A DNA stretch of 64,000 bases, taken from NCBI GenBank assembly GCA_020444325.1, contig JAHLLD010000001.1, forward strand, positions 62,001 to 126,000, in the 5' to 3' direction. A model generated the notes under the pieces. The model was not told where the DNA came from. It searched no databases and saw only the letters and a list, made by a program, of their open reading frames with translations. Of the stretch, positions 8,346 through 37,428 are shown one piece after another. Position numbers and translations under genes: made by a program. Numbering within the stretch: position 1 is the stretch's first letter; each line of letters begins with the position of its first letter. This stretch comes from a bacterium (lineage in GTDB: Bacteria; Bacteroidota; Ignavibacteria; SZUA-365).

Positions 8346-8410
8346 CTCGGAAATTTGTGTTCAACGAGAAAGCAATCTCTGATTACAGATGCCCACATTT
8401 TGCGGATACC

Positions 8411-9636: not shown

Positions 9637-9639
9637 TGG

Positions 9640-14180: not shown

Positions 14181-14274
14181 TAGTTATCCTATGACTCGTT
14201 GATAACGTCTGGGTAGAACTGTAACCTTTATAGTACTCCCATGATGGACCTAAGAGATCTCTGGGGACCTCAGC

Positions 14275-14446
14275 ATGAGCACGAAATACCGTATAGAACT
14301 ATGTATCCTCCAGCAACTTCTCTACGGGTAGTTGCCTGTCGAAGAGGTCGCAGAGGTATTGATATCAGTGAGCGACAGATGTATCGCAATAGAAGCCGAG
14401 TTCTCGAGGATGGAGTTATGGGATTGGCGACATGCCCACGTTAGTT
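14275..14446 (+). pseudogene. Decayed helix-turn-helix fragment, probable transposase remnant
   Basis: Between the polymerase gene and the IS481-type remnant is a 408-bp stretch without an intact gene. Reading plus-strand frames from ATG 14275 gives MSTKYRIELCILQQLL, a stop codon, then PVEEVAEVL; after a one-base shift it continues ISERQMYRNRSRVLEDG. Joined, this looks like the N-terminal helix-turn-helix of a transposase. With a nonsense codon and a frameshift in under 180 bp it is a dead fragment. The sequence from 14,447 to 14,588 shows nothing else I can name. Confidence 0.4.
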
Positions 14447-14588
14447 CGACCAATTACACATGTTCCTTAATAATAAGAAACGATGTACTTGCGATCCATC
14501 GAAGGAGGAATGGCGATAACAAGCAGGAGTTAGTATCAAATCTAACAACTGATATAATCGCCCACTTACATTTAACACAGAATGTCAG

Positions 14589-15619
14589 ATGACCACAACA
14601 GAGACAATCATCAAGAGCAAGCTCAGGCTCCTTGAGCTGGCCAACACATCTGGGAGCGTCATGAAGGCGTGTAAGATCATGGGCTACTCCTGTGACCGTT
14701 TCTACCGTTTCAAGAAGATCTACGAGACCGGCGGCGCGATGGCGTTGCAGGACCTGTCTCGCCGGAAGCCCAATCTGAAAAATCGAGTAATTGAGGGGAT
14801 CGAAAACGCTGTCGTGAACTGCGCGTTTGTGATACCGACCTATGGGCAGCTCCGCGTCTCAAATGAACTGCGCAGGAATGTAATCAATGTTTCCCCGCCT
14901 CGGCACGAAACATCTAGCTGCGCCACGATCTCGAAACCTTCACTAAACGGCTGAAGGCATTGGAAGCCAGGGTCGCCCAAGAGGGACTGATTTTAACCGA
15001 GGACCAGGTTCGTGCTCTCGAACGAAAGCGGGAAGAACTAAAAGCCCATGGTGAGATCAAAACTGAGCACCCCGGTAACCTTGGTGCACTGGGCACGTAC
15101 TACGTCGGCACCGCTAAAGGTGTCGGGCGCATCTATCAGTAGACGTCTATCGATAACTATTCTAAGGTCACCAAGGCGAAAGTCTACGACCGCAAAAACT
15201 CACTTGTTGCTGACGTGCTGCTCAATGACCTGGTCGTCCCGTTCTACGAAGAGCATGAGCTCCGGTTACTTCGGATTTTGACGGATCGCGGGACGGAATA
15301 CAACGGCAATCGGGAAACCCACGACTATCAGCTCTATCTGGCCCTAGAAGAAATCAATCATTCCAAGACCAAGGCACGTCGGCCACAGACGAATAAAATC
15401 TGCGACTGATTCCATAAAACGGTCGAAGACGGGTCTTACACAGTGGCATTCCGGGAAACTGTGTACACCTCGCTTGAGCCGCTGCAAGAGGATCTCGACG
15501 CCTGGCTCGCTGAATACAACAGAGAACGGACTCACGCAGGAAAGTACTGCTTCGGGAGAACACCCATACAGACCTTTGTTGACGCTGCGCCGATCGCAAA
15601 ACACAAACACCTTGACTAA
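14589..15619 (+). pseudogene. IS481-family transposase, inactivated
   Basis: Three reading frames add up to one IS481-type transposase. ATG 14589 opens the helix-turn-helix domain (ACKIMGYSCDRFYRFKKIYE). Near 14,915 the frame shifts, and [20 protein letters not shown] continues it. A TAG at 15,140-15,142 replaces an expected Gln codon before TSIDNYSK, and a TGA at 15,407-15,409 replaces an expected Arg in the ICERFHKT motif, where the catalytic Glu also reads Asp. The frame ends at TAA 15,617. The rve-type integrase core (TSID, LTDRGTEY) is otherwise recognisable. The following 219 bp to 15,838 contain no gene. Two nonsense codons and a frameshift show it is not functional. Confidence 0.85.
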
Positions 15620-15838
15620 CTAAAGACCTATTCTGACGATATGGCAGAGGAGCAGATCAACACTGTCTGTCAGAACTTAGGTCTTAGAAAGCACACCAAA
15701 TCCGTCTGTTCTACGCAATATTCTTATGCAATTCGATTTGTTGTTTACAGTAGAACCTCTGCACAAACTCGTAGAATTGCTATTCGAACAGAATCTTTCG
15801 TTTGCCAGCGCAATGTTTAAATGCACAAGACAGATTTG

Positions 15839-17065
15839 TCACCGTTTCAGTTTTCTCATTGCAATTCGCTTCTTTATGATGTTTATCTGACCCATAGCTT
15901 CCGGCATTATATGGTATAGTCTGTCCTTCCATGTACTCTTTTCTGCTTCATACTCTAGAGCTCTTTCTACTAACGCTTGATCATAATCTATTTTTTCAAT
16001 GCCGCCCAGCGTATCATTCAGACTGGTTGCACGATCATCCCAATTTAGGAACCGTACAGCATATTCTCTAGCACTACGCTTCATTGATACGATTTTATCC
16101 TTGTCATTAATTAATTCTTGCAGTACAGACGTGAGGATCTCCTGCTTAACCTCCACCATTTGCCAATAGTATCCATCTCCCCTTCTAAACGACCTTTCCA
16201 CAGGAATCGATACGCCATACTCAGAACGCACAAATTCACTCATAGGAGGGTGACCTGTTGCGACAACAGCCAAGCCACTGGATATGGCCTCTGGTAATGT
16301 TAAGCCCAAACCATCCAATCTGCTTGGATACACATATATATCTGCAGACGAATATAATCCAGGGGCCGGTATTGTTTTTCTTATCACTTGCAACCTACCT
16401 GCCTTAGATAGCTTCGATATCGCTGAACGCGCCATGTTACTAATTTTCGACAGCGATACCTGTGTATGTACCACTAGTTTAAAATCTCCACTAATTCGGG
16501 AGGCCGCGTTCAATAGCATATCAGTTCCTTTTCTATAAGGACTCACTCCACATGAATGAAACAGTACCGGGATCTCATGATCTGCCTCTTTGGCTGGCGC
16601 AAAGAGGTTAGTATCCACGCCCCATGGTATGTGATACGATTGCGGATGCTCCTTAAACACCGAATAATGCCTCTTTGTATTGCATAGTAAAAAATCATAA
16701 AGCCAAAACAACGGAACTGTATCATGAGTATAGTAATCAATATAGGAGCCAGTAATGACACCCTCTTCCTTGCACCACACAACAGGCTCCCACCAAGATT
16801 GCTCATTGAATAACACTATGTCTATTTTATTTAGAGATATCCATTTTATAAAATCCGCTTTATCTATAGCAGTCCGGATCGGTCTTCCGGTAACCTTACC
16901 CCACCAGACATTCTCTTTATTGTATGCACGACTACGCTTATCCTGGTAGCCCCCACGTGCATAAATATACACCTTGTTCTCAATCGCTATTAATCTTTCA
17001 TACTGGCGCGATACATAAGCAGCGCCTCTTTCAAACCACGTTGTTACGATTCCGACATTAGCCAT
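15839..17065 (-). CDS. Glycosyltransferase family 4
   Basis: This GT-B enzyme is about 408 residues long from the preferred ATG 17065, which is preceded by an AGGA ribosome-binding site; a longer frame opens at 17083. It starts with ANVGIVTTWFERGAAYVSRQ, common in GT4 proteins of surface-polysaccharide loci, and carries a C-terminal donor site with ADIYVYPSRLDGLGLTLPEA followed by GLAVVATGHPPM. It probably adds one sugar during repeat-unit assembly. The region is A+T-rich compared with the genes near 20-28 kb. It lies between the epimerase gene and the dead IS481 element. Confidence 0.85.
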   Translation of the reverse strand: MANVGIVTTWFERGAAYVSRQYERLIAIENKVYIYARGGYQDKRSRAYNKENVWWGKVTGRPIRTAIDKADFIKWISLNKIDIVLFNEQSWWEPVVWCKEEGVITGSYIDYYTHDTVPLFWLYDFLLCNTKRHYSVFKEHPQSYHIPWGVDTNLFAPAKEADHEIPVLFHSCGVSPYRKGTDMLLNAASRISGDFKLVVHTQVSLSKISNMARSAISKLSKAGRLQVIRKTIPAPGLYSSADIYVYPSRLDGLGLTLPEAISSGLAVVATGHPPMSEFVRSEYGVSIPVERSFRRGDGYYWQMVEVKQEILTSVLQELINDKDKIVSMKRSAREYAVRFLNWDDRATSLNDTLGGIEKIDYDQALVERALEYEAEKSTWKDRLYHIMPEAMGQINIIKKRIAMRKLKR

Positions 17066-17115
17066 GATAAGTCCTAAATGCAATAGCGTAAACCATTACG
17101 ACTACAACACAATTG

Positions 17116-18069
17116 CTATTGAAAGAGCGAGCTATCGTCATTTCTGTCCCTATAATATCGCACTGTTTTTTCAATACCAGTCTCGAACTCTACAATCGGC
17201 GAATAACCAGTGCATCTCTTCAGCAATTCAATATCAGCATAACTGTGCTTGATATCTCCTGGACGCGACTCTGCGTACTCAGGCACTATCGTGGTCCCTA
17301 GTATTCGATTCAGCAACATCACAAGCTGATTTAATGTCACTTGCCCGTGTGTCGCGCAATTTATTGCTTTCCCAACAACAGCTTCTTTAGTTGCTGCAAG
17401 AATATTCGCAGAGACTACGTTTTTCACAAAAGTAAAATCTCTGCTTTGCTCACCATCACCATATATTTTTGGAGCAACCTCTTTCATCATAAGGTTTATG
17501 AATTTCGGTATGACCGCAGAATATTGAGACGATGGATCCTGCCGGGGTCCAAACACGTTAAAATACCTCAGCGCCACAGTCTCCAATCCGTACAGTTCCG
17601 CATATACACGGCAATAATTCTCCCCAGTCAGCTTCGAGACAGCATAGGGAGAAAGAGGAACCGGCACCATTGTCTCGACCTTTGGCAGTGTTGGATTGTC
17701 ACCATATACAGATGATGAAGACGCGTACACAATACGACGAACTCCGTGACTCCTAGCTGCTTCCAAGATATTCAGTGTCCCTACAACGTTAACTTCATTG
17801 GTTGTGATTGGATCATTAATTGATCGTGGTACAGATGGAAGTGCAGCTTGGTGCAATATGACTTCCATTCCTTCAACAGCACGGTTGACAACATGAAAGC
17901 TTCGTATATCCCCTTCAATCAGTTCAATATGGTCTTCATACTCTGTCAAATTCTCTCTTTTCCCAGTAGAGAAGTTGTCCAACACACTGACATCATGCCC
18001 GCGATTCACAAATTCCTCAACGAGGTTCGAACCAATAAAACCGCCTCCGCCAGTTATCAACACTTTCAT
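17116..18069 (-). CDS. NAD-dependent sugar epimerase, UDP-GlcNAc/UDP-GlcNAcA 4-epimerase type
   Basis: The 317-residue extended SDR protein has the GGGGFIGSNLVEE Rossmann motif, the catalytic SSSSVYG and SPYAVSK (YxxxK), and RYFNVFGPRQDPSSQYSAV. The RQDPxSxYSAVIP segment is characteristic of the WbpP/TviC group of UDP-HexNAc 4-epimerases, so conversion of UDP-GlcNAc(A) to UDP-GalNAc(A) is likely, but UDP-glucose 4-epimerase activity cannot be excluded. Start ATG 18069. The gene lies just inside the right side of the ISL3 insertion as read along the operon. Confidence 0.82.
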   Translation of the reverse strand: MKVLITGGGGFIGSNLVEEFVNRGHDVSVLDNFSTGKRENLTEYEDHIELIEGDIRSFHVVNRAVEGMEVILHQAALPSVPRSINDPITTNEVNVVGTLNILEAARSHGVRRIVYASSSSVYGDNPTLPKVETMVPVPLSPYAVSKLTGENYCRVYAELYGLETVALRYFNVFGPRQDPSSQYSAVIPKFINLMMKEVAPKIYGDGEQSRDFTFVKNVVSANILAATKEAVVGKAINCATHGQVTLNQLVMLLNRILGTTIVPEYAESRPGDIKHSYADIELLKRCTGYSPIVEFETGIEKTVRYYRDRNDDSSLFQ

Positions 18070-18163: not shown

Positions 18164-19489
18164 GAGGCTCTTCGCTGTATTGTGCGGGTAGGTATCGTAG
18201 ATTGCGCTCGATTTGAGTAGGTTCCGGTTATGTACTACAGCACCCGAACGCCGATGACTTCTCCGACTGATGCCCTTTTCACTGCCGCTCTTGGCCTCAT
18301 GCCCCCCTGGGAATGCAAGAAAACCGAATTCTCCTCTGATGCTTCGCGCCTCGATCTCTGGATCGATTTCGTCCCTGGAAGCAGGTTCGACTGCCCGGAG
18401 TTGTGCGGTGGCAGGACAGCCGGTTCATGACACGGTGGACAAAGAATGGCGTCATATGGACTTTTTTCAGCACACGTGTTATCTGCACGCTCGTGTTCCG
18501 CGGGTGCGCTGTGATGCATGCGGGGTTCAGCAGGTCACCGTCCCCTGGGCGCGTCCGGGAAGTGGCTTTACGCTGCTGTTTGAAGCTCTTGCGATGAGCA
18601 TGGCCCCGCACATGCCCGTGGCCGACATTGCCCGCCAGTTCCGCATTCACGATACGCGGCTCTGGCGCATTCTCCGGTTTCATATCGCGCGTGCACGGGA
18701 GCATGAAGACTACTCTACGGTAGAGTGCATCGCACTTGATGAGACCTCTCGCCGTCGGAGGCACCGGTATGTGAGTATCGTTACTGATGCGGATGCGCGT
18801 CGCGTTCTGTTTGCCTGTGAGGGACGCGGGCAGGATGTGTTAGGCCGCTTTGCCGATGATTTTCATGCGCACGGGAGTGATCCGGACGAAATCCGGGTCA
18901 TCAGCATGGTCATGTCGCCCGCGTTCATTGCAGGTGTGCGCGAGGTTCTGCCCAATGCCCATATGACGTTTGATCGTTTTCATATCATGAAGCTACCCAA
19001 CGAAGCCCTCGACCGTGTTCGCAGAGAAGAAGCGCAGGAGAACCCGCATTTGAAGGGCAGGCGGTTTCTGTGGCTCCGTCGTCCACGGCAGCTGAGCGTA
19101 TCACAGGAGCGTAAACTCTCAGATCTGCGGTATTGCGCGCACAAGACAAACAATGCATACGCTCTCGTCCTGGGACTACGCGCATTCTTTGATATTGAAG
19201 CACATCAGTCGGTCGCATATCTGAAGCGATGGTATCACTGGACCCGATGCAGTAGGATCGAGCAGATGAAGGAGTTTGCGCTTACGATCAAGCGACACTG
19301 GGATGGCGTCCTTCGTTTTCACCAGTCACACATGACTGCAGGCTTTCTCGAAGGTATCAACAGCTTGGTTCAGGCATCCAAACTAAAGGCACGAGGGTAT
19401 CGATCCACAGACAACTGGATCACGATGATCTATCTGATTGCCGGGAAGCTCGATTATCAGCTTACCTACAAGTAGTAGCGAGGAACCCC
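18164..19489 (+). mobile_element. ISL3-family insertion sequence
   Basis: The element contains one transposase frame and imperfect terminal inverted repeats. The left end reads GAGGCTCTTCGCT (18,164-18,176) and the right end is AGCGAGGAACCCC (19,477-19,489), which matches the reverse complement of the left end at 10 of 13 positions. A GGCTCTTC-type end fits the ISL3 family. I could not find the expected 8-bp target duplication, so the exact ends are uncertain or the flanks have diverged. It is inserted on the strand opposite to the operon, between an acyltransferase gene and the epimerase gene. Confidence 0.75.
18230..19475 (+). pseudogene. ISL3 transposase with N-terminal frameshift
   Basis: The long frame from ~18,415 to 19,475 encodes most of an ISL3 transposase: the zinc-like RCDACGV segment, DDE residues in IALDETS, MTFDRFHIMK and FLEGINSL. 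The expected N-terminus (PPWECKKTEFSSDASRLDL, then GSRFDCPE) lies in another frame starting near 18,230. The two frames join if one T is removed at about 18,400 (GAGTTGTGC to GAGTGTGC), restoring CPEC before AGQPVHDTVDK. The element therefore carries a +1 frameshift in its N-terminal zinc-binding domain and is probably inactive, unless this is a sequencing error or programmed frameshift. Confidence 0.8.
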
Positions 19490-19515: not shown

Positions 19516-20097
19516 TCAGGGCCTCTTTCCGATCATTTTCACAGGTTGACCAATATAGATTCCATTTGCAATCGTCTTCGTCCTACTTGTCACGACTGAA
19601 CCAGCACCAACGATTACACCATCATCTATTCTGCTACCACTCGTGACCAAACAGCCGCGACTTATTTGAACATCGCTTCCAATTATTATTGGGTCATGGG
19701 TTGTGACCTGGTCGTGTATTCGACTATGTGAACTATAACCATGATCACCATCCCGAATACTCGAGTACTCCCCGATACCTGAGTAATCTCCAATTACAAC
19801 CTGCACACCACTGCTGATAAGCAAATCTTGCACAAGATTCACATGATTGCCGATTTCAAGTATGGCCTCTCTCCCCACATCCAATGAAATCCTGTATCCA
19901 ATCGTTACCGACGATCCTAGCCTGATATTACCATTTGGCACTTGCCGAAACGTGGGCCATTGCTTACACTTCAGCTTGTTACCAACCCGGCAGCCGTGCA
20001 GCCGTAGATAGCAGCGCAGCAACCAGCCGCGCATCATCCACAACGCTTTGCGCAGCTGGTGCTCGGTGGCTGCCATATTGTTCAGAATGGCGCTCAT
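19516..20097 (-). CDS. Left-handed beta-helix acyltransferase (hexapeptide repeat)
   Basis: The 193-residue protein shows hexapeptide repeats ([LIV]-G-x4) from about residue 55 to the end, including DIQ-like turns such as GIGEYSSIRDGDHGYSS and GSDVQISRGC and the terminal GIYIGQPVK. This is the WbbJ/NodL/LacA type of acetyl-CoA-dependent O-acyltransferase. An N-terminal helical extension (about 35 residues) precedes the repeats. It overlaps the GNAT gene upstream by 4 bp. It could be an O-acetyltransferase, or the transferase that unloads the carrier-protein acyl group made by this block; the second idea is inference. Confidence 0.82.
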   Translation of the reverse strand: MSAILNNMAATEHQLRKALWMMRGWLLRCYLRLHGCRVGNKLKCKQWPTFRQVPNGNIRLGSSVTIGYRISLDVGREAILEIGNHVNLVQDLLISSGVQVVIGDYSGIGEYSSIRDGDHGYSSHSRIHDQVTTHDPIIIGSDVQISRGCLVTSGSRIDDGVIVGAGSVVTSRTKTIANGIYIGQPVKMIGKRP

Positions 20098-20576
20098 GGC
20101 CGTAACTGCTTTCTCATCTGGTACAGTTCGCGTTTGAAACCGAGACTTTCCCAGAGTTTCCAGGCATGCTCGTTATCGGTCAGAACCTGCAACTCAAGAG
20201 AATCCACATCTCGCTCGCGAAACCACATCTGTAGTTCGCGAATCATTCTCAGGACGAGAGGGCCAGTGCGATGCTGTTCCTCCAGGTAAAGCCCGTCCAC
20301 ATATCCGACCTTCTTGCTTCCGAGGTACGGTGGTGTGATCCGGATATACCCGAAAACGAACCCGACGATACGGTCATCTTCGACAGTCGCGACCATCTGG
20401 TAGAAGCGCCCAAGACTTTTACGCAGGCCGTCGAGCCATAGATGCTCACCGTTCTCTACAAGCGGCATCTGCAGTCCCTTGTCGCTCATGCTCTCGTAGT
20501 AATCACGAAAAAGTGGCGGCAACTGGTCCAAACGCTCATCATCACGCCCCAGTATTTCTATGCGAATATCGCTCAT
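20094..20576 (-). CDS. GNAT-family N-acyltransferase
   Basis: The 160-residue protein follows the GNAT pattern: beta-strand VGYVDGLYLEEQHRTGPLVLRMIRE in the CoA/acyl pantetheine site, then LELQVLTDNEHAWKLWESLGF, the classic NxxAxxxYexxGF-like motif 4. The Q/RxxGxG/A loop is present only in altered form (EEQHRTGPL). It is linked by 4-bp overlaps to the acyl carrier protein gene upstream and the beta-helix acyltransferase downstream, which suggests the acyl donor may be the carrier protein rather than acetyl-CoA. Confidence 0.82.
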   Translation of the reverse strand: MSDIRIEILGRDDERLDQLPPLFRDYYESMSDKGLQMPLVENGEHLWLDGLRKSLGRFYQMVATVEDDRIVGFVFGYIRITPPYLGSKKVGYVDGLYLEEQHRTGPLVLRMIRELQMWFRERDVDSLELQVLTDNEHAWKLWESLGFKRELYQMRKQLRP

Positions 20577-20842
20577 CCGTTACTCGCCGAGCTTAGGACA
20601 CACTGCATGAAGCCGCCGAGCGTCGTGAACACATCCGGATCATGCTCTGTAAAGTCGATCTCCGTTTGAAACTCTTCCTCGACATCGGTAATGAGGCCAA
20701 AGAAATCCATTGAATCGAAGACGCCGGATCCAGTAAGATGGTAATCATCAGTCAATTCCGGTCGCTCTAGTCCAAGCATTTCGACCTTCTCATCGATTTT
20801 CTGTTCGATAAAAGATTTCAGGTTCTCTCGATCCATCGTCAT
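20573..20842 (-). CDS. Acyl carrier protein (ACP 1)
   Basis: The 89-residue protein is a small acidic four-helix carrier with the phosphopantetheine attachment motif GVFDSMDF; the modified Ser is residue 44. It overlaps the adenylating enzyme gene upstream and the GNAT gene downstream by 4 bp each. The simplest reading is that the ligase loads an acyl or aminoacyl group on this carrier and the acyltransferases pass it to a sugar. This is the second carrier in the block; the first is at 23,567. Confidence 0.88.
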   Translation of the reverse strand: MTMDRENLKSFIEQKIDEKVEMLGLERPELTDDYHLTGSGVFDSMDFFGLITDVEEEFQTEIDFTEHDPDVFTTLGGFMQCVLSSASNG

Positions 20843-22398
20843 TTCTCCATGACCAACAATTGTTTTCTATCGATTTTCCCACTGGGTGTTATCGGGAACT
20901 GAGCAAGGACCGTAAAGCGGGTCGGAACCATGTACTCCGGCAGATGCTCACGGCAGAGATGCAACGCTTCTCCCTGCAGCGTCGTTCCCGCCGAAGAGAG
21001 GAGGAACGCATGTAGTCCGTGCACCATTCCTGTCGAATCCTGAAGGGGTAAGACGACCGTCTCCGTCACAGCATCCATCGAGCGGAGGAAGGATTCCACC
21101 TCCGCGATTTCCACGCGATAACCCCGGATCTGCACCTGATGGTCTATCCTCCCTAAGTATTGCAGCGTTCCGTCTTCCAGTTCGTTGACCAAGTCACCCG
21201 TTCGATACCAGATTCCCACCTCACCCTCGATTTTCACGAAACTATGCTTAGTGCGGTCGGCATCTTTCAAATATCCATTCGTAACCTGAGGACCGGAAAC
21301 AAGCAATTCACCTCTTGCACCCCACTTCAGGGGGTGTAAATGCTCGTCGACGATACGAAAGCGATGGGTCGAAAAAATCTTCCCGATGGGGACGATCCCG
21401 TTCACGGCAAGAGCCGGAGAACTGGACGCCTTCCATTCATGTCTGGAAATATTGATGGTGATCTCCGTTGGACCATACCCATTGACAATGACGGAATTCG
21501 GAGCGGCCTGACTCCAAGATTCTGCCACGTGATCCGGCAATCCTTCACCGGTAAACAGTGTATAACGCAGTGTAGGAAGACTGTTCGGCTTCAGCATCCT
21601 GACCTGCTTCATGCGCAGGGCAATCGAAGGCACCGAACTCCAGACGGTCAACTTCTTCCGGTTAATAAAGCGGTTCGGGAGAAGAAGATCATTCGGTGAA
21701 AGTGGACATAGGCAGGCACCCGCGGACCAGCAGACAAACATGTCATGAACGCTGGGGTCGAAGGTCGTGTCAAACGCCTGCGAGATACGGTCATCGGGGC
21801 CTAAATCATATTCCCCCCGGATGAACTCGATGTAAGCTTCCAGGTTCGCATGCGTTACAGGAATTCCCTTTGGCTCCCCGGTGGTCCCCGATGTGAACAA
21901 GAAGTAGGCTTCAGTGGAATGCTCTTCGAACAGCATACTTCGCTCCATGCTGTCTGAAGCTTCGTCTCCTGCTCCCGCCTCCTCGCACAGCGGGGCAAGT
22001 ATTTCAACGTCGATAAGGGACAACTGTGTTGCATGGTCATCCAGCATCTTCCTTACATACTCTTCGAACTCCTCACTCACGATCGCGGTACCACTCTGCG
22101 CCAGGTCAAGCATCCGCGACGTACGGGAAACTGGGAACTTCAGGTTGATCGGAAGGTAGGGACGACCGGATCGTAGAATACCGAGTATCCCTACGTACGT
22201 GACAAAGGAACGCGAGGCGAATATCGCGACGGGGGTGCGTCGCGTTCCTTCACGACTCTCGATTACGCGCGCGATTTCTCCTGCTGCCCGCCAGAGTTCC
22301 CGGTAGGACCATTGCGTGGAATCGATCTCCAGCGCAGGCCGATCCGGATACTGCAGTACAATTGCCGCGACTCGATGAATAATAGTCACAGTGTCCAA
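20839..22398 (-). CDS. AMP-forming acyl/aminoacyl-ACP ligase (adenylation enzyme)
   Basis: The 519-residue protein is an ANL-superfamily enzyme similar to DltA and stand-alone NRPS adenylation domains. The P-loop FTSGTTGEPKG is at 168-178, FDTTFDPSVHD follows at about 209, YGPTE is at 308-312, and the C-terminal SGKIDRK gives the catalytic Lys. It activates a carboxylate with ATP and transfers it to a carrier, most likely ACP 1, whose gene overlaps by 4 bp. The start is TTG 22398, preceded by AGGAGG; it overlaps the previous gene by 13 bp. The substrate (amino acid or hydroxy acid) cannot be read by eye. Confidence 0.88.
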   Translation of the reverse strand: MDTVTIIHRVAAIVLQYPDRPALEIDSTQWSYRELWRAAGEIARVIESREGTRRTPVAIFASRSFVTYVGILGILRSGRPYLPINLKFPVSRTSRMLDLAQSGTAIVSEEFEEYVRKMLDDHATQLSLIDVEILAPLCEEAGAGDEASDSMERSMLFEEHSTEAYFLFTSGTTGEPKGIPVTHANLEAYIEFIRGEYDLGPDDRISQAFDTTFDPSVHDMFVCWSAGACLCPLSPNDLLLPNRFINRKKLTVWSSVPSIALRMKQVRMLKPNSLPTLRYTLFTGEGLPDHVAESWSQAAPNSVIVNGYGPTEITINISRHEWKASSSPALAVNGIVPIGKIFSTHRFRIVDEHLHPLKWGARGELLVSGPQVTNGYLKDADRTKHSFVKIEGEVGIWYRTGDLVNELEDGTLQYLGRIDHQVQIRGYRVEIAEVESFLRSMDAVTETVVLPLQDSTGMVHGLHAFLLSSAGTTLQGEALHLCREHLPEYMVPTRFTVLAQFPITPSGKIDRKQLLVMEK

Positions 22399-23570
22399 GT
22401 ATCCTCCTTCTCGCCGCCATAAACCTGGAAGTCCTTTCCTTCATCGGCGACGAGTTCGATCAGCAGTCCGCCCGTCTGTACCGGTGAGAGAAAGACAACC
22501 CTGTGATACGGTTTGGGAGCAAGCAGTACCCTGCCATCGATAGGATGATACCCCAGGTCGCGGAAATATGCGACTCCTTCTTCCAGAGATCGCACTTCGA
22601 AGGCGATGTGATGAATCGGATTGAAGGGCAGTTTCTGCTGGTGGGCAGACACGATGCTGTTTTCTCTGATCGGCGACACGATCTCCACGTCGACGTTCTC
22701 GTATACATGGTACTGGCAGTTCACACCGATGGCTTCGACAACACCCTCGTACGCAATACGCGCTCCGAGCAGTCCGAGCAGTTTCCTGATCTTCATTTCA
22801 TACTTGGATACAATCCCAATATGGTCGAGCCGCAAGATAGGATGGTCAGCTGACGCGGAATCTTCGTCCGGCTTTTCCAGGAAGTAGTCAGGAGTAGCGG
22901 CCAGGACACTATGAACATTTTCTCGCAGACCTGCGAGTGGTCCCACGGCGACCGAGAGGCCAGCGAGGTTCCTCAGGCTCCACGAATCACCTGCGATGCC
23001 TGCTAGAGCTTCCATCGAAAACTTCACACGCTTCCCTTCTAGCAATTCAAATCTGAAGCCAACCGCTCTTCCTGCGCATTCAGAGTCCTCACCGCCCACC
23101 TCATACTTCTTCCAGAAACGATGGGGTACCTCCGCCTCTTCCTCGAACCATGGAATTAATGCTGCCGCCGAATCATCGCCGATGAGAACAAGTGAGGCCT
23201 CCCTACCGGCGGCACGCGACAGCGGGGATCGCTCATCATAGCCGGTGACGCTATCTGCATTGAGCAGGTAATCGGCCAGAGGGCCGCATGCGGTCCAGAC
23301 GACATGCGCTCCACATCTCGGCTGCAGTTTCACCCACGAAGCAGTTGCCAAGACGCTCGCGATCCCCTCGTTGTCACCGTCGTTGGCAGAACAGTCGATA
23401 GTGAGCACCGTTGTCCATTCTAGCGACCGGAGAAGAGCCTCCCGAGCATCCTCGTTGGTGCGAAGATATGACAACAGCGCGCGATCCGTAATAATCAGGA
23501 CGAGGATTTCTGATTCTTGAATTCCGGTATGCAGATAGTTGATCAAAGATGTATAATCAATCTTGCTCAT
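22386..23570 (-). CDS. Fusion: AAC(3)-like domain plus VOC/glyoxalase domain
   Basis: The 394-residue protein appears to be two domains. Residues ~245-394 are a VOC domain like methylmalonyl-CoA epimerase, with likely metal ligands H250 (RLDHIGIV), H321 (HHIAFEV) and E372 (LLIELV). Residues ~1-160 resemble the aminoglycoside 3-N-acetyltransferase (AAC(3)/YokD) fold: CGAHVVWTACGPLADYLL and DERSPLSRAAGREASLVLIG match the ...V.A.GP.A and SP.GRL...VLLIG pattern of that family, though the usual catalytic His region looks degenerate. I infer N-acyl transfer or carrier binding plus an epimerase/isomerase step on the acyl group. The AAC(3) assignment is from pattern memory only. It overlaps ACP 2 by 4 bp. 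Confidence 0.6.
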   Translation of the reverse strand: MSKIDYTSLINYLHTGIQESEILVLIITDRALLSYLRTNEDAREALLRSLEWTTVLTIDCSANDGDNEGIASVLATASWVKLQPRCGAHVVWTACGPLADYLLNADSVTGYDERSPLSRAAGREASLVLIGDDSAAALIPWFEEEAEVPHRFWKKYEVGGEDSECAGRAVGFRFELLEGKRVKFSMEALAGIAGDSWSLRNLAGLSVAVGPLAGLRENVHSVLAATPDYFLEKPDEDSASADHPILRLDHIGIVSKYEMKIRKLLGLLGARIAYEGVVEAIGVNCQYHVYENVDVEIVSPIRENSIVSAHQQKLPFNPIHHIAFEVRSLEEGVAYFRDLGYHPIDGRVLLAPKPYHRVVFLSPVQTGGLLIELVADEGKDFQVYGGEKEDTWTL

Positions 23571-23800
23571 CGGCTCCCGATCTTCTGCTGAAGAATTTCC
23601 ATCGCCATTGCCGGACTCACACAGTCAACAACTTCCGTATCTGTAAACTCGACCTCGAATTCTTCTTCCAGAGCTGCGACAAGGTTCAGATGTTTGAGGC
23701 TGTCCCAGCCTGATGTGTTCTCTGGTCCGGTCGTACTGCTGATGGCAGCTGGGTCCAGGCCGAGTACCTGTGAAAACACACGATATATTTGTTCACGCAT
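23567..23800 (-). CDS. Acyl carrier protein (ACP 2), partner of FkbH-like enzyme
   Basis: From ATG 23800 the product is 77 residues, a normal ACP length; a longer frame upstream overlaps the FkbH gene and is not used. The phosphopantetheine site is WDSL with Ser34. The gene overlaps the FkbH-like gene by 8 bp and the VOC-fusion gene by 4 bp. FkbH-like proteins load a glyceryl group from 1,3-bisphosphoglycerate onto a dedicated ACP of this kind, so this is the likely acceptor. Confidence 0.88.
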   Translation of the reverse strand: MREQIYRVFSQVLGLDPAAISSTTGPENTSGWDSLKHLNLVAALEEEFEVEFTDTEVVDCVSPAMAMEILQQKIGSR

Positions 23801-25523
23801 GAATAACCTCGATATATGACAATTCGTTGGGCTGGTACCTGCTGACCTGAAGCGTGAAGCCACTCGCCCCGTCTTCACCCGTATCGGACGGAGTGAATCC
23901 GCAGCGCGGATAGTACTCAGCAACCTGCATGTTCTTCTCGGTAGGGATATACATCCCGTTCAGCGTTTCCACCCCACGCGAAGCGCAATGCGCCACAATA
24001 CTTTGCATCACTGCGTACTCGATGTTGCGTCCGATGATGCGGCAGCTCATGAGAAGCGTATCGATGTCGCAGCACGCTTCCGTATGATGCAGGATGCATG
24101 CCGCGGTGATTCCGCTGTCCCCGTAATTATCCTGCACCGCAAACGCGAATACATCCGTGTTGTCAGACTCCGTGAACGCGGTGATGTCGGCCTCAGTGTA
24201 GCGCCGGGTGGTCAGGTTAAACTGATTCGTTTTCTGTGTCATTTGCGCGATACGAGGGATGGTGTCAGGATCGTTACAAGAAACCATCATCTTGATACCA
24301 AGACCCTGCAGATAACTCTCAAAGTCCGAATGGCGCTCACGCTCCTCAGTGCGCATACGTTCTTCGTGGTACTGTCGCTTCCGCTGAAGATCTTCGGAGG
24401 ACAGTGACAGCTGCGTGAAACGTGTTTCGAGTTCCCGAAACAGTGCCGGGTAACGATAGAGTTTCGCCGGTACCTGGAAGGTCGTGACCTCGGGCAGCTG
24501 GGCGCGGACAAGGCCAATCTCGAAATCCGAATCATCAAGGAAAACGAAGGAATCCAGGCCCAGATTGAGTTCTGCGGCTGCGTCCCTTATGCTATCCGTT
24601 TTCGGGTACCAGGAAACCCGTTTTACCGTCAGGTCATCGTCTCTCAACACCATCCACGGGTGATCACGCAGCATGGCATCCACATCCTCGGCATTGTTTT
24701 TACTACACAGACCGAGCAGGACACCGCGCTTCCCGAGTGCCTTGGCTCGCTGCTGAATCTCATCGAAGACGGAGCCCGGGTACTGATGCGGATCGAGTTG
24801 CACACCGGAAGGTGTGTCTTCTCCGAGGATGCCTCCCCAGAGTGTGTTGTCGCAGTCCATCAGAAGCAACTTCGCCGTACGTCCGGCGAGTGAATCGAAC
24901 CAGGGCTTCACAGAAGTCGCTAGCTCTTTATAAAACGGAACGGCATACAACGCGCTAGCATTATACCAGCCGCGCCAGTCCAGTGCTGATTCGAGCGACG
25001 CGCGCGCATAGATCTTGTCGACGTTGATAAGACGGCCATTCTGAGGGAGAGCATCCCGGAGATGCGCATTGCATCGATCAACGAAGTCATCATACGCAGT
25101 AGCATTCGCATATCCGGCAGTAAACGGAAAGGCAGAGAACTCCGTCCAGAGAAGCAGCGGCACCTGAGAGAGGTTTCTAGCCACGAGCGTGATTTCCGAA
25201 GCGACGTGCCGGAATAGTGCTTCTCGCTCCGCAGTCTCCATCAACTCCAGTCGGTGTGGCAGTCCTTCGGCAGCATTGGCCGCCTCCCAGATCACCATCA
25301 CCACGCGCGCGTTGACGCCGGCACTCTCCTGAACGATTTGATCATAGTCTCCAAGCGTGACATTCACGAAAACACCTGTGGAGCGCAGCGCATACTCGAG
25401 AACGTCCTTCACCGGTTGCACGATGACATTAGAGAGCACCTTCACTCCCATCGGCTCCCCATGCATGGATCCTCCCAAGTCCCGGTTTGCCGCGATGATC
25501 TCCGCGAATTTCATATCCTTCAT
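23793..25523 (-). CDS. FkbH-like HAD-IIIC enzyme (glyceryl-ACP forming type)
   Basis: The 576-residue protein has an SGNH-like N-terminal region (~1-215) and a HAD domain with the nucleophile motif DCDNTLWGG at 223-231, GLCSKNN as motif II and FLDDSDFE as motif III, then a GNAT-like C-terminal region with QKTNQFN and YGDSGI. This architecture defines FkbH proteins, which convert 1,3-bisphosphoglycerate to glyceryl-ACP in polyketide and surface-glycan pathways. It overlaps the MaoC-SDR gene upstream by 4 bp and the ACP 2 gene downstream by 8 bp, supporting a dedicated pair. It is the best clue to a glycerate-derived acyl group. Confidence 0.9.
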   Translation of the reverse strand: MKDMKFAEIIAANRDLGGSMHGEPMGVKVLSNVIVQPVKDVLEYALRSTGVFVNVTLGDYDQIVQESAGVNARVVMVIWEAANAAEGLPHRLELMETAEREALFRHVASEITLVARNLSQVPLLLWTEFSAFPFTAGYANATAYDDFVDRCNAHLRDALPQNGRLINVDKIYARASLESALDWRGWYNASALYAVPFYKELATSVKPWFDSLAGRTAKLLLMDCDNTLWGGILGEDTPSGVQLDPHQYPGSVFDEIQQRAKALGKRGVLLGLCSKNNAEDVDAMLRDHPWMVLRDDDLTVKRVSWYPKTDSIRDAAAELNLGLDSFVFLDDSDFEIGLVRAQLPEVTTFQVPAKLYRYPALFRELETRFTQLSLSSEDLQRKRQYHEERMRTEERERHSDFESYLQGLGIKMMVSCNDPDTIPRIAQMTQKTNQFNLTTRRYTEADITAFTESDNTDVFAFAVQDNYGDSGITAACILHHTEACCDIDTLLMSCRIIGRNIEYAVMQSIVAHCASRGVETLNGMYIPTEKNMQVAEYYPRCGFTPSDTGEDGASGFTLQVSRYQPNELSYIEVIHA

Positions 25524-26707
25524 CGCATTACCTGCCCACCGTTGACACGAATCGTCTCGCCCGTACAGTAGCTGCTGTCCCGCGAAAGCAAGAAGGCGAT
25601 AACTCCGGCAATATCCTTAGGGTCAGCTAGCCGCTTCATTGGAGCGGTTGCCTGGATACGCGTTTTTACAATTGAAGGGAGTCCGGCGATAAGCTTTGTG
25701 TCCGTCATACCGGGCGCTACGATATTCACGCGGATGGAGTACGGAGCGAGCGCCACTGCGAGTGATCGCGCGAGTCCTTCAAGCGCGGACTTCGCCGTGA
25801 TATAGGGCATCCACTCAGCGCTCGGTGTATCGACGGCCTGCGTCGAAAGAAACACGATGCTGCCTTCACCTCTCTCTTTCATGTGCGGCAATACGGACTG
25901 CACGGCATTCCACGCGCCGCGCAGTTCAATATCGAGGGCCTCCTCGAAATCCTGCCACGAAAGTTCCTCGTAGGTACTGTCGTCTAGCGGACTTGTCACA
26001 CAATAGACGAGACCGTCCAGTCCGCCCAGACGATACGCGGCCTGCCTCGCTGCGTCCTCCATCTCCTCCGACTTTCTCACATCAGCCTCGACGACTAACG
26101 CTTCTCCGCTGCCGGCACGGATCGTTTCCACGACACTGCTCGCGGCGTTCCTGTCGCTGTGACAGTGTACGGCAACCGGTCGGGCACGATGTCCCAACTC
26201 CTGTGCGACAGCGGTGCCGATCCCGCCGCTACCTCCAACAACGAGCACGGCGGCATAGGAAGCAGAATTTCGCGAGTCCTGAACTTTCTCCGGTTGCGGG
26301 CTGAGCACTTTGACGTGCGCTTCTCCGCGTGTGACGACCTGTCTACGGTGGTTCCGAATGATCACATCCAGGACGATGGTTTTCGTGCGCTTCTTTTTGC
26401 TGGTGACCGTTGCCGTGACCGTGATGGCGTCTCCTTCATAGACCGGTCGCACGAACTCCAGTGTCTGCCGATGCCAGAGAGCACCATCACCGGGCAGCTT
26501 CGTACCGATCAGCGTTGAAATAAACGCGGCGCCAAGCATCCCGTGCGCAATAGGCTTCATGAATTGCGTCGCCGCGGCAAACTGTTTGTCGATGTGCAAT
26601 TTGTTGTCATCACCAGTCAATGCGGCAAACCGGGTAATGTCGTCTGTTGTAATCCGGTGCCGTACTTTCTCTTTATCTCCAATCTGTATGTCTGCAAATG
26701 CTCTCAT
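25520..26707 (-). CDS. Fusion: MaoC-like hydratase plus SDR ketoacyl reductase
   Basis: The 395-residue protein joins a hot-dog (R)-enoyl hydratase domain (~1-140; TGDDNKLHID and AHGMLGA active-site segments) to a FabG-like SDR (~150-395; GGSGGIG at 158-164, Y302 and K306 in YITAK, IRVNIVAPG and C-terminal GETIRVNGGQ). It could hydrate/dehydrate and reduce a carrier-bound acyl chain, for example in making a 3-hydroxyacyl group. It is the first gene of the acyl block and overlaps both neighbours by 4 bp. Fusion of these two domains is uncommon; each exists alone in fatty-acid metabolism. Confidence 0.87.
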   Translation of the reverse strand: MRAFADIQIGDKEKVRHRITTDDITRFAALTGDDNKLHIDKQFAAATQFMKPIAHGMLGAAFISTLIGTKLPGDGALWHRQTLEFVRPVYEGDAITVTATVTSKKKRTKTIVLDVIIRNHRRQVVTRGEAHVKVLSPQPEKVQDSRNSASYAAVLVVGGSGGIGTAVAQELGHRARPVAVHCHSDRNAASSVVETIRAGSGEALVVEADVRKSEEMEDAARQAAYRLGGLDGLVYCVTSPLDDSTYEELSWQDFEEALDIELRGAWNAVQSVLPHMKERGEGSIVFLSTQAVDTPSAEWMPYITAKSALEGLARSLAVALAPYSIRVNIVAPGMTDTKLIAGLPSIVKTRIQATAPMKRLADPKDIAGVIAFLLSRDSSYCTGETIRVNGGQVMR

Positions 26708-27492
26708 GATTTAGATTCCTGAAGTCGTTTCTTCTCCACTCGCCTGTCTATATCCACGACGAATGCAATCGCCTTCCTCAGCAAGCATCGTAGCAGCTTA
26801 ACCGTATTAGAGGTATATCGTGGTATCCCATATTCCTTCAGAATTCTATATCCCTCACTGAACCTCGTGCATCCTCCGCTCACACCACCCGTTTGGAATC
26901 CTGTCAGTGTTTGCGGAACATATGCGAACCTTGCACCCTCGCGCTTTGCGCGCAGCAGAAATTCGTAATCAGCATCGACGCGATAGCTTTCGTCGAACAG
27001 CCCAATGCGCTCATATAGTGCTTTTTTAACGAAGCAGGTAGGATGGAAAATCGATGGTTTGTTCTCCAGATCCTCGCTGTTGCTTGATGGCTGCTTATGC
27101 CTGAAATACGAGAATGAAGGATATTCTGTGAAAACCATCTGGTTTCCGTGGAGTATATCTGCGTCGGAGGATTCTGCAAACTGCAGCACAGTATTGATCG
27201 TCCAGGGGAAATAGAAGTCACCGGCATTGACGATACCAATCCACTCGCCAGTAGCTACGCGAATTCCCTTGTTCATGGCATCATAAATACCCTCGTCGGG
27301 TTCACTGCTGTAAGTCGTGATGACATCTGGGTATCGAGCGACGATATCTGTTGTTCCATCCTCTGATCCTCCATCCATGACGATGTACTGGTCTGGATGT
27401 CGCAATTGATCGCGAATGGATCTAATCGTCCTCTCGATTCTCTTGACATCGTTGAAGGCTATCGTAACAATCGACACAGTAGCCATTGTCAT
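26704..27492 (-). CDS. Family 2 glycosyltransferase
   Basis: The 262-residue GT-A protein has the VSIVTIAFNDVKRIERTIRS start, YIVMDGGSEDGT as nucleotide-binding segment, EGIYDAMNKGI and the metal-binding NAGD in place of the usual DxD. That set is typical of the colanic-acid WcaA/PssE-like group of GT2 enzymes. It overlaps the upstream GT2 gene and the downstream MaoC-SDR gene by 4 bp each, tying the acyl block to sugar transfer by translation coupling. The sugar donor is unknown. Confidence 0.87.
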   Translation of the reverse strand: MTMATVSIVTIAFNDVKRIERTIRSIRDQLRHPDQYIVMDGGSEDGTTDIVARYPDVITTYSSEPDEGIYDAMNKGIRVATGEWIGIVNAGDFYFPWTINTVLQFAESSDADILHGNQMVFTEYPSFSYFRHKQPSSNSEDLENKPSIFHPTCFVKKALYERIGLFDESYRVDADYEFLLRAKREGARFAYVPQTLTGFQTGGVSGGCTRFSEGYRILKEYGIPRYTSNTVKLLRCLLRKAIAFVVDIDRRVEKKRLQESKS

Positions 27493-29383: not shown

Positions 29384-30856
29384 TCACTTCATGATCCGTT
29401 TTCTGAGTGTCAGTAGCTCCTGAAGACCGTTCATCCTCAGCAGCCAGCTCGTCAATCCATACACCGTCAGCACACCGAATGTTTTTATCGCAAATCCCAA
29501 TGCCATGGACATCTGCGCATTATCATATTGCCAGAGCAAATGGTACAGTGTTGTTATGATCGCCCCAGCCGCCAACGCGATGAACGCATAACTGTAGATC
29601 CAGTTTACGATCCTCTTGAACGGTATACGAACAATGCCTCCAGCCGTCCAGAAGTTGAGCATGACGCCGATCGCTTGCCCCACGGTGAGCGCCACCAGGT
29701 ACCCAGTAATACCGAAATAGAATCCGACGGGCATGCAGATCGTCAACACTGCTTTCTTGTAGAGTTCCAGACGCAAAAAGCTCTTCCCGTGCCGCGTTCC
29801 ACTGACGACGTTAACAAGAATAGCCGACATGGGATACGCGTAGGCGAACAGCATGGCAAGGCGCAGGTACGGTGCGGATGCGAGCCACTTATCCGTGAAG
29901 AGCAATACGATAATTTCATCTGCGGATACGTACAGCACCGCTGACATAGCGAAAACGACTAAGCTCAACACGTTCAGGCTTCTCGATACCGCTTTTCTGA
30001 TTGCAGCATGGTCGTCCTGCATCTTGCTAATGAGGGGGAAGAATACTCGTACGAGGCTGTTTCCGGCATACCGGATGATCATCGTGTTGAAGGAAACCGC
30101 ACGATAGTATAGTCCCAGATCGGCAGCCGAGAACAGCTTCCCTATAATGAGGATGTCCACCCGCTGGTATACCGTGTTAATCGCCCCGGCAAGAAACATC
30201 CTCCCGCTGAACGGCAGATGCTTCCGCAGTATCCGCGTGTTGAAATGCAGTCTCGGGATCCATTCTTCTACCGACCAGATGATGACGGTCTGAACTGCCA
30301 TACCCATTATGGCCTGAATAACCAGGGCCCAGACCCCGTAACCCAAATATGCCATGGTTATCGCCACGGAGCCCGCCACGATCGACGATACGAAGCTAGC
30401 ATAGGTTTGAACACGGAAACGCATTTCCCGTGTCAAAATCGCAATATGCACCACATTCAACGAACCAATTATTGGATTGATCGCAAGCAGACGCATAATG
30501 TCTGCAATCCTCGGTTCGTCGTAGAACCGGGCTATCACCTCACTGCCAGTGTATAGCACGATCGCGATCAAAGCGCCGATGGTAATATTCAAATAAAATA
30601 TTGTTGAGTACTCTTCGTTTGATACCTCTTTTGCCTGAATAAGGGAGGAACTCAGTCCGAGGTCGATCAGTATCGTAGATATCGATACGAAGAACATCGA
30701 CATGGCGACAAGACCAAATTCTTCGGGACCGAGGATTCGCGCGAGCAATACTGTCACGAAAAACGTAACACCCTGCTTCAGTAACTTACCTGATACATCC
30801 CATGCATATGCGGAAACGCCCTTCCGCTGGATATCTTTCCTGTCAACGTCTGACAC
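29384..30856 (-). CDS. wzx: Wzx-type polysaccharide flippase
   Basis: The 490-residue protein has about 12-14 membrane helices and the start GVSAYAWDVSGKLLKQG then LARILGPEEFGLVAM, which is the signature of the MATE-like PST/WzxC flippases. It moves the lipid-linked repeat unit across the inner membrane for Wzy-dependent polymerisation. The start is GTG 30856 with an AGAGGA ribosome-binding site. With the Wzy-like protein at 12,936 and the initiating transferase at 5,711 it completes a Wzx/Wzy-type pathway in one operon. Confidence 0.87.
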   Translation of the reverse strand: MSDVDRKDIQRKGVSAYAWDVSGKLLKQGVTFFVTVLLARILGPEEFGLVAMSMFFVSISTILIDLGLSSSLIQAKEVSNEEYSTIFYLNITIGALIAIVLYTGSEVIARFYDEPRIADIMRLLAINPIIGSLNVVHIAILTREMRFRVQTYASFVSSIVAGSVAITMAYLGYGVWALVIQAIMGMAVQTVIIWSVEEWIPRLHFNTRILRKHLPFSGRMFLAGAINTVYQRVDILIIGKLFSAADLGLYYRAVSFNTMIIRYAGNSLVRVFFPLISKMQDDHAAIRKAVSRSLNVLSLVVFAMSAVLYVSADEIIVLLFTDKWLASAPYLRLAMLFAYAYPMSAILVNVVSGTRHGKSFLRLELYKKAVLTICMPVGFYFGITGYLVALTVGQAIGVMLNFWTAGGIVRIPFKRIVNWIYSYAFIALAAGAIITTLYHLLWQYDNAQMSMALGFAIKTFGVLTVYGLTSWLLRMNGLQELLTLRKRIMK

Positions 30857-30904
30857 TGAAAGTCCTCTTCACCCGTTGACCTGCCACTGCAGGGAGCCAG
30901 CTGC

Positions 30905-32044
30905 TCATCCCATCTTCCACAGCACATCTTGGATATGCTCGACGACGTCATGCCCGAGATCGCCATACATTGGCAGGCACAGTACAGATTCCGAAATCCC
31001 CTTCGCGACAGGTGTGTAACTATCCCTATACGACGCATAACTTTCAACCTGTGTGATCAGGGGATAGAAATACTTTCGCGTGTAGATTCCCTGCGCACGG
31101 AGCGCATCATACGCCGCATCGCGTGCCGCCTGGCCTGCTTTACCAAACAGCACCGGAAAATAGGCGTAGTTCCACTCCACATCCGGATCAATCTCCGGAA
31201 TGGAAATGAACTCGAAACCACTCAGCGAGTTCCGGTACAGCGTGTCCAGTTCGCGTCGTCTCGCCAGCTCATCATCGATCTCATCGAGTACCAGCAATCC
31301 CCATAGCGATTGGATTTCATTCAGCTTCGCATTCATTCCGATTTCTTCTACAGTCGTCTCGCTGGTGATACCGAAGTTACGCAGAAGATTGATCTTCTTC
31401 TGCGCTTCCTCGGATTTCGAGAAGACCGCTCCACCCTCCATAGTATTAAACAGTTTCGTCGCGTGGAAACTTAGGACGGAGGCATCGCCCCATTCCGTAA
31501 TGGGACGACCTTTGTAGCGGACGCCGAATACATGTGCGGCGTCGTAAATCACGCTTAGTCCGTACTTCTCGGCGATAAAGTCAACCTTCTCAACATCACA
31601 CGGATAGCCGTAGACATGTACAGGAAGAATTGCGCTCGTGCGTGAAGTGATATGCGATTCAATCTGAGCGGGATCTATTCCGAATCCCTCAGGTTCAATA
31701 TCACAGAAGACAGGGATGAGACCGCACCATAAAATGGCATGTGCCGTAGCGATAAATGAAAATGGTGTCGTGATAACCTCGCTGCCGGGAGGGCAGAAAG
31801 CCTTCAGGGCGAGCATCAATCCGAGCGTTCCGTTTGACACCAGGGAGGGATACGGTGCCCCGAGATACGAGGATAGACGTTCTTCAAGCCGCTGATGAAA
31901 CTTCCCGTTGTTCGTCAACCACCGGCTTGACCAGATATCCTCTAATTCCTTCGTAAAAACTTCCTTGCCGGGAAGCAATGGAGACGTCACATGGACCGGT
32001 GATTTTTCGTTATTCTTTGATTCGTTCACTGTGCTCGAACTCAA
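30905..32044 (-). CDS. vioA: DegT/DnrJ-family sugar aminotransferase, VioA-like
   Basis: The 379-residue PLP enzyme has SNGTLGLMLAL near the N-terminus, YDAAHVFG and the PLP-lysine motif SFHATKLFN. The early WLTNNG segment and the overall pattern match VioA, the dTDP-4-keto-6-deoxyglucose aminotransferase that makes dTDP-4-amino-4,6-dideoxyglucose (dTDP-Qui4N). A formyltransferase of the VioF type (35,750), RfbA (33,682) and RfbB (63,029) are in the same window, so a dTDP-Qui4NFo route is likely. The frame opens with TTG 32044; GTG 32029 is an alternative. Neither has a strong ribosome-binding site. Confidence 0.75.
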   Translation of the reverse strand: MSSSTVNESKNNEKSPVHVTSPLLPGKEVFTKELEDIWSSRWLTNNGKFHQRLEERLSSYLGAPYPSLVSNGTLGLMLALKAFCPPGSEVITTPFSFIATAHAILWCGLIPVFCDIEPEGFGIDPAQIESHITSRTSAILPVHVYGYPCDVEKVDFIAEKYGLSVIYDAAHVFGVRYKGRPITEWGDASVLSFHATKLFNTMEGGAVFSKSEEAQKKINLLRNFGITSETTVEEIGMNAKLNEIQSLWGLLVLDEIDDELARRRELDTLYRNSLSGFEFISIPEIDPDVEWNYAYFPVLFGKAGQAARDAAYDALRAQGIYTRKYFYPLITQVESYASYRDSYTPVAKGISESVLCLPMYGDLGHDVVEHIQDVLWKMG

Positions 32045-32046
32045 GA

Positions 32047-32625: not shown

Positions 32626-32658
32626 CTATCAGTACCTTTGTATCGATTGGTACAACAT

Positions 32659-33642: not shown

Positions 33643-33681
33643 ATTAAGCGACAAGTAGATATAAGATCTGAATACAATAAT

Positions 33682-34545: not shown

Positions 34546-34551
34546 GTGAGC

Positions 34552-35700: not shown

Positions 35701-35749
35701 GATATATTCGATAGTTGAGAATGAGAAATCTATATACTTTTGCCAAAGC

Positions 35750-36442: not shown

Positions 36443-36444
36443 CG

Positions 36445-37419: not shown

Positions 37420-37428
37420 CTGATCTCA

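Follow-up and report, generated by a model that had tools for sequence, protein, structure and literature searches.

The acyl groups of amino sugars help to determine the antigenicity of surface glycans and their recognition by phages, and the source of these groups is often unknown. Acylation of glycan amino sugars by way of carrier proteins is already known in outline. In Vibrio cholerae O1, the wbe tetronate genes, which comprise an acyl carrier protein (ACP), an AMP ligase and an acyltransferase, reportedly acylate perosamine; to our knowledge, they include no FkbH, MaoC-SDR or VOC. We describe here a block of eight genes that lies in a 64,000-nucleotide stretch of DNA (hereafter, the window; positions 62,001 to 126,000 of contig JAHLLD010000001.1, assembly GCA_020444325.1) from a bacterium of the SZUA-365 lineage of the Ignavibacteria. 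By description, the block resembles the wbe region in bringing together a carrier, a ligase and a transferase in a surface-polysaccharide operon, in V. cholerae an O-antigen operon where they N-acylate an amino sugar, and it differs in having more than the one carrier system of that organism.

The flagellar locus of Campylobacter jejuni, cj1295-cj1308, is a second described system. It reportedly also carries AAC(3)-like, GNAT, several ACP and amino-acid-activating genes, and we know of no MaoC-SDR or VOC fusion in it. This locus serves to modify the pseudaminic acid of flagellin, and it is compared with the window by description rather than by sequence. The likeness lies in the presence of an FkbH-domain gene within a glycan locus devoted to dimethylglyceric-acid-substituted pseudaminic acid: the gene is cj1302, and a cj1295 mutant is unable to make the sugars bearing glyceric acid (PMC7099621). 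Outside glycan loci, FkbH works with an ACP and a FabH-like enzyme in tetronate clusters (PMC4979870), and OocJ has a DH-MT-FkbH-ACP module, thought to be non-functional there (PMC4552970). These systems share with the window an FkbH and ACP that give a carrier-bound three-carbon unit, with processing domains beside FkbH, whereas the parts in the window are separate small proteins within a glycan operon where no polyketide synthase (PKS) is recognised. The parts are mostly familiar. What is new to us is the rare combination of two modules, the presence in a glycan operon of MaoC-SDR linked to FkbH, and the fusion of a dead AAC(3) domain to a VOC domain; no published description of any of the three was found in the one paper collection searched.

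In the program-made list of open reading frames (ORFs), seven minus-strand ORFs occupy positions 20094-26707 exactly as the initial annotation, made from the letters alone, had reported. They overlap by 4, 8, 4, 13, 4 and 4 bp in gene order, from 26707 down to 20094. A 4-bp overlap also joins the block to the upstream glycosyltransferase gene and to a downstream hexapeptide acyltransferase gene, which is the beta-helix acyltransferase that the annotation placed after the block. Domain models agree with its calls of MaoC, SDR, FkbH, ACP, VOC, AMP-forming ligase and GNAT, the second ACP being the weaker one. The eight genes fall into two separable modules, A and B:

25520-26707, minus strand: MaoC dehydratase-SDR reductase fusion (module A), 395 aa; PF01575, PF13561
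23793-25523, minus strand: FkbH-type HAD-IIIC glyceryl transferase (module A), 576 aa; TIGR01686
23567-23800, minus strand: ACP2, acyl carrier protein (module A), 77 aa counted from an ATG, the longest listed ORF beginning at a TTG at 23923; PF00550
22386-23570, minus strand: AAC(3)-fold/VOC fusion (module A), 394 aa, AAC(3)-like over about 1-240 and VOC over about 245-380
20839-22398, minus strand: amino-acid adenylating ligase, DltA/NRPS-like (module B), 519 aa, TTG start; TIGR01733
20573-20842, minus strand: ACP1, acyl carrier protein (module B), 89 aa; weak PF00550
20094-20576, minus strand: GNAT acyltransferase (module B), 160 aa; PF00583
19516-20097, minus strand: left-handed beta-helix (WbbJ-like) hexapeptide acyltransferase (module B), 193 aa; NF007240

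We consider it rather probable that this block provides two carrier-bound acyl groups, one derived from glycerate and one aminoacyl, for transfer to the amino sugars of the polysaccharide encoded around it. The gene content, the catalytic motifs kept or lost, the two-module structure and the co-conservation with glycan genes are observed; from these we infer the chemical steps, the products and the acceptor. The earlier proposal of two carrier systems, one loaded by FkbH and the other by a ligase, with acyltransferases at the end, is supported, and both are conserved together with the polysaccharide locus.

A genome of another genus of the same family (G009) has the eight genes in collinear order, MaoC-SDR first and the hexapeptide transferase last, with about 49-67% protein identity. 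The neighbours of the block, glycosyltransferases and Wzy, are also the same there, the upstream glycosyltransferase being 60% identical. Since the eight genes recur in identical order in a second genus, a chance run of genes is excluded. Between the window and G009, the eight genes and the upstream glycosyltransferase differ at 0.57-0.69 of third codon positions and at 0.18-0.34 of second positions. Change at third positions so far above that at second positions means that the block proteins are under constraint. A genome of the window's own genus (G001) has the homologous locus with its order kept (ETF, bifunctional nuclease, UpxY, Gmd at 91%, DegT, RmlA, MocA and NeuD-like), but the same glycosyltransferase (57%) is followed only by module B, whose ligase, ACP1, GNAT and hexapeptide transferase are about 38-42% identical. 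Module B can therefore stand alone, and the block is composite. Placement within the glycan locus is thus kept in independent genomes, for the whole block in G009 and for module B in G001. A broken ISL3 transposase gene occupies the place of module A in G001 (L104:12481-13357), which would fit loss or replacement of module A, its earlier presence there being unproven. With this remnant, ISL3 transposase genes or their remains lie beside acyl modules or replace them in three related polysaccharide loci, the other two being the window (18270-19475, plus strand) and L032:4441-4695, which suggests that ISL3 elements take part in the gain and loss of acyl modules.

The entry enzyme of module A is of the FkbH family: it scores 281 bits against TIGR01686, whose curated cut-off is 146.65, and it has both the HAD motif DxDxT, as DCDNTLW, and the SCRxxGR motif. 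It would dephosphorylate 1,3-bisphosphoglycerate and put the glyceryl group on ACP2 (PF00550, 4.4e-07; site GWDSLKHL; equal in length in G009), its candidate partner, with which its gene overlaps by 8 bp. The MaoC-SDR fusion matches PF01575 (9.9e-21) and PF13561 (1.1e-51). In the alignments, the MaoC motif D..(x)4..H is intact in 8/8 relatives and the SDR motif YxxxK in the 6/6 relatives that are fused. Full-length relatives at E<=1e-60 are found in four genomes (the window's own, G000, with G009, G053 and G367), FkbH being adjacent in each. That MaoC-SDR accompanies FkbH in other genera suggests that it processes the glyceryl group. In G053, the set is found with a DegT aminotransferase, a methyltransferase, KAS III, GNAT and two FdtA/QdtA-like genes (ORFs read by eye), evidently an amino-sugar locus as judged from these genes. 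The simplest chemistry for a MaoC and an SDR, as deduced from mechanism, suggests deoxygenation of glyceryl to lactyl-ACP: MaoC would eliminate the C3 hydroxyl as water, giving an enol and then pyruvyl-ACP, and the SDR would reduce the keto group. We give lactyl as the end product of module A somewhat less than an even chance. A reaction from 1,3-bpg and ACP to D-lactate-ACP is how FkbH is written in the BiGMeC pathway reconstruction (PMC7901079).

A survey of FkbH loci bears on this assignment. Of the 48 places found, 34 loci were read, amounting to 543 ORF-genes (several of the remaining 14 are below the family cut-off). Labels came from single-sequence phmmer seeds at E<1e-3, so that absences are soft; L077 and L102 end at contig ends, and the overlap filter of the script dropped ACP2 of the window, which was therefore counted with ACP1 only. 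MaoC is present in 8/34 loci, from eight genera, never more than two genes from FkbH and in every case with an SDR, the two being fused in six loci and separate in two; the match in L098 is weak (1.2e-4). KAS III is recognised in only two of the eight (L067 and L098), and MaoC and SDR are therefore not generally there for chain extension. It could be argued that module A transfers unreduced glyceryl (glyceroyl), with MaoC-SDR acting on another thioester, such as 3-hydroxybutyryl from central metabolism, and VOC doing nothing else than epimerise the glyceryl group. Sets of FkbH, ACP and VOC without MaoC do exist, as in L066 and L087, and MaoC-SDR pairs elsewhere, on plasmids, serve other thioesters. 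This explanation is unlikely, given the proximity of MaoC to FkbH in every one of the eight MaoC-bearing loci and the fact that the closest relatives of MaoC-SDR, four out of four, adjoin FkbH.

The VOC half of the fusion is related to methylmalonyl-CoA epimerase. Its match to TIGR03081 (8.8e-13, 48.9 bits) is under the equivalog cut-off of 114.95. In a predicted model, its fold compares with 3hdp at Z 15.8 (130 residues aligned, 2.9 A) and with 6wf6 at Z 15.1 (132 aligned, 3.0 A). The metal ligands of human MCEE are His50, His122 and Glu172 (PMC6525113), and in the alignment these positions are retained as H250, H320/H321 and E372. The domain thus resembles the epimerase in its fold (Z about 15) and ligand positions; it differs in falling short of the equivalog cut-off, in sharing one protein with an AAC(3)-fold domain and in its association with FkbH and ACP. 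VOC is found in 7/34 FkbH loci, six times within two genes of FkbH and once three genes away. Standalone VOC genes occur near FkbH in five loci besides (L065, L066, L077, L087 and L096), and the ligand pattern can be traced by eye across the alignment of all seven VOC proteins. Because an epimerase fold, the ligand positions and recurrence near FkbH go together, the predicted role of VOC is likely to be proton exchange (epimerisation) at the alpha carbon of a carrier-bound acid, whose configuration it would set.

The other half of the fusion, AAC(3)-like in the initial annotation, is a remote relative with the AAC(3) fold, but it is improbable that it works as an acetyltransferase. The model of the whole fusion (pLDDT 68.4) is informative mainly on the VOC half, and the N-terminal half was therefore modelled alone (pLDDT 67.2, from an alignment that included three true AAC(3) relatives). 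Its best structural match is 6mn3 (Z 13.3, 196 aligned, 3.8 A), the first unrelated row being at 4.5; it does not pass PF02522 (E 0.058, 13.4 bits against a gathering score of 25). The (V/I)H..E motif has a conserved His, which is present in 3/3 intact AAC(3) relatives aligned and in the alignments with BA2930 and FrbF; the window has Pro140 in its place and G009 has Arg. By our own position count and the entry titles, this His is the H183 mutated in structure entries of BA2930. The HSSL motif is lost, and HP becomes HV in the window, DP in G009. With its conserved His replaced by Pro or Arg, this half is probably not a working acetyltransferase and is best read, from its sequence, as a pseudo-transferase. 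On the same ground, it was rejected as the acyltransferase of the pathway. It may perhaps serve as a dock for a carrier protein. The fusion is rare: counting the window's genome, it is found at full strength in 2/197 relatives. Among 395 genomes of the phylum, the N-terminal half has three other matches, all weak and all AAC(3)-like by alignment; two were run against Pfam and pass PF02522. Relatives of the fusion were absent from a scan of viral contigs, a scan of genome contigs returned the G009 contig only, and the query against plasmids gave a single weak VOC match.

Module B begins with a ligase that clears the cut-off of TIGR01733, the model for amino-acid adenylation (330.7 bits against 317.4), and whose closest solved relatives are adenylation domains of nonribosomal peptide synthetases (NRPS). 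This upholds the idea of a ligase-loaded carrier. As the ligase is of the amino-acid adenylating kind, its candidate substrates are amino acids, and not acids in general as first supposed. Read by eye, its Asp motif is FDPSVH in the window and G009 and FDPSIH in G001. The Asp at what is presumably GrsA position 235, the residue that usually holds the amine of the substrate, is kept in all three genomes. Against the GrsA positions, the pocket reads by eye D P H S L T G I N in the window, D P H A L T G I N in G001 and D P H Y I S Y I N in G009, so that the window and G001 are almost alike and G009 stands apart. The ligase would adenylate its amino acid and load it on ACP1, a protein with the site GVFDSMDF, 56% identical to that of G009, just below the Pfam threshold for PF00550 (19.7 against 20.8 bits) and weakly matched to DltC. 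Like the dlt operon, module B thus pairs a discrete amino-acid adenylating ligase with a small carrier protein, and the DltA and DltC matches could be taken to mean a D-alanylation system of the teichoic-acid type. We regard this as very improbable: the ligase reaches 296.1 and 291.9 bits in the DltA models, which require 476 and 559.85, and ACP1 reaches 19-20 bits in DltC models with cut-offs of 52-68. Furthermore, no MBOAT (DltB) is annotated among the operon genes scanned; other transferases, GNAT and hexapeptide, are found instead, in a surface polysaccharide setting. A dlt-type D-alanylation was rejected since the DltA and DltC cut-offs are missed. To the left of the window, a neighbouring glycan region holds a second AMP-forming ligase, of 412 aa (L034:6633-7871, G000:C1), together with an SDR and a hexapeptide transferase; this second ligase is related, at 29%, to the ligase of the acyl locus of G053.

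Two candidate transferases end the run. GNAT (PF00583, 8.8e-10) weakly matches a sugar N-acetyltransferase model of the PseH type (30.3 bits against a cut-off of 93.1) and is present in 3/197 relatives, namely the window's genome, G009 and G001. The hexapeptide acyltransferase (NF007240 WbbJ, 1.1e-12, under the cut-off) is likewise kept in G009 and G001. Together they would acylate an amino sugar from the loaded carriers before polymerisation, possibly placing one group onto the other. In its strict form, the latter arrangement has the two ACPs acting in series, the aminoacyl group being placed first on the amino sugar and its amine then capped by the hydroxyacyl group, to give an N-(hydroxyacyl)aminoacyl side chain. 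In favour of this scheme, one overlapping run contains two carriers as well as two plausible transferases, and module B is present without module A in G001, as expected if the cap is optional; no condensing enzyme is found, and acylating two sugars separately would give the same picture. We regard the serial scheme as tentative and on the unlikely side.

Several points weigh against the proposal that both modules supply acyl groups to the amino sugars of this polysaccharide. The acceptor sugar is not revealed by any gene, several amino sugars being possible in the operon, and modules A and B may act on different sugars. Since the pocket residues of the adenylation domain differ, the amino acid may not be the same in the window and in G009. 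An ACP is recognised in 20/34 FkbH loci, some FkbH types having no recognised carrier gene nearby. Finally, of 40 plasmid records listed with a MaoC and SDR pair, four were inspected and none has an annotated FkbH near; the four pairs accompany AMP ligases or thiolase-like genes. The value of MaoC-SDR as a general marker of FkbH is weakened accordingly.

The genes around the block are those of a polysaccharide operon, and the embedding that the initial annotation described is borne out by UpxY, nucleotide-sugar genes, Wzx, Wzy and glycosyltransferases on its two sides:

29384-37965, minus strand: operon head, UpxY antiterminator to Wzx flippase, by profile matches
26704-27492, minus strand: family 2 glycosyltransferase directly upstream of the block; PF00535, 7.2e-21
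18270-19475, plus strand: ISL3-family transposase between the block and the remaining operon; NF033550, 297.1 bits, cut-off 180

The operon head comprises a UpxY antiterminator (145.5 bits, cut-off 100), a Gmd-like dehydratase scoring slightly under the GDP-mannose-dehydratase model cut-off, an N-formyltransferase that clears the dTDP-4-amino-4,6-dideoxyglucose model (284.1 against 238), two DegT aminotransferases, RmlA (485.8 against 360.65), a Gfo/Idh/MocA dehydrogenase, a NeuD-like acetyltransferase and Wzx. The antiterminator and three family 2 glycosyltransferases upstream have the orientation of the block. Downstream, the transposase is followed by an epimerase, glycosyltransferases, a Wzy-like gene and an initiating sugar transferase. 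At the right edge of the window (about 63074-64021), RmlB clears its cut-off. With RmlA, the formyltransferase and RmlB among its nucleotide-sugar genes, the operon could make a dTDP-amino sugar; GDP- and UDP-amino sugars are possible further products, as judged from its genes. Among the annotated genes around the block, no PKS or NRPS module is recognised. The order glycosyltransferase-block-glycosyltransferase-Wzy is retained in another genus. This is not the picture of a natural-product cluster displaced next to sugar genes, the case that the initial annotation had named as its refutation, and a displaced PKS/NRPS cluster was rejected on gene context. FkbH, a ligase of the adenylation-domain kind and ACPs are nevertheless typical natural-product parts, and large proteins with FkbH and adenylation-domain-like stretches occur in the class (L076), so that the block might be thought to make a small diffusible metabolite or a lipid rather than a glycan substituent. 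Its position between glycosyltransferase genes in two genera, and that of module B in a third genome, make this improbable, as does the lack of any recognised PKS or NRPS in the operon. The G+C content of third codon positions is lower downstream of the block, about 0.38-0.40 in the epimerase, GT1 and Wzy genes (12936-18069) against about 0.50-0.64 in the block (19516-26707), a drop that is typical of a mosaic locus.

If the proposal is correct, MaoC, SDR, ACP and FkbH, with VOC optional, form a testable genetic signature for glycerate-derived acyl groups, and the VOC genes beside FkbH are accounted for. The fusion would then exemplify an AAC(3) fold whose acetyltransferase activity has probably been lost, and one should be cautious about annotating it as an aminoglycoside acetyltransferase. 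A more far-reaching scheme would run from glycolysis to glycan: a glyceryl group made by FkbH from 1,3-bisphosphoglycerate, deoxygenated on its carrier to lactyl by MaoC-SDR, given its configuration by a VOC domain on a dead aminoglycoside-acetyltransferase scaffold and combined with aminoacyl-ACP into a hydroxyacyl-aminoacyl side chain of the amino sugar, the MaoC, SDR and FkbH sets of eight genera forming a general lactyl-ACP pathway and ISL3 aiding the swapping of module A. Taken as a whole, this scheme is doubtful.

Other FkbH loci are of several kinds. The L066 set (6594-10006) lies in a polysaccharide locus in the order VOC-FkbH-ACP-hexapeptide transferase (357 aa) and is perhaps a minimal glyceryl-transfer cassette. 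A shorter FkbH-type protein, of about 342-358 aa and with an epimerase near, occurs in four genomes of the family (G000:C12:147844-148767, which is L072, and L073, L074 and L075); it is a different FkbH subtype. On pSymB of Sinorhizobium meliloti (L108:9507-11680), an ACP and a full-length FkbH relative adjoin an MBOAT gene and lie a few kb away from genes for capsule export.

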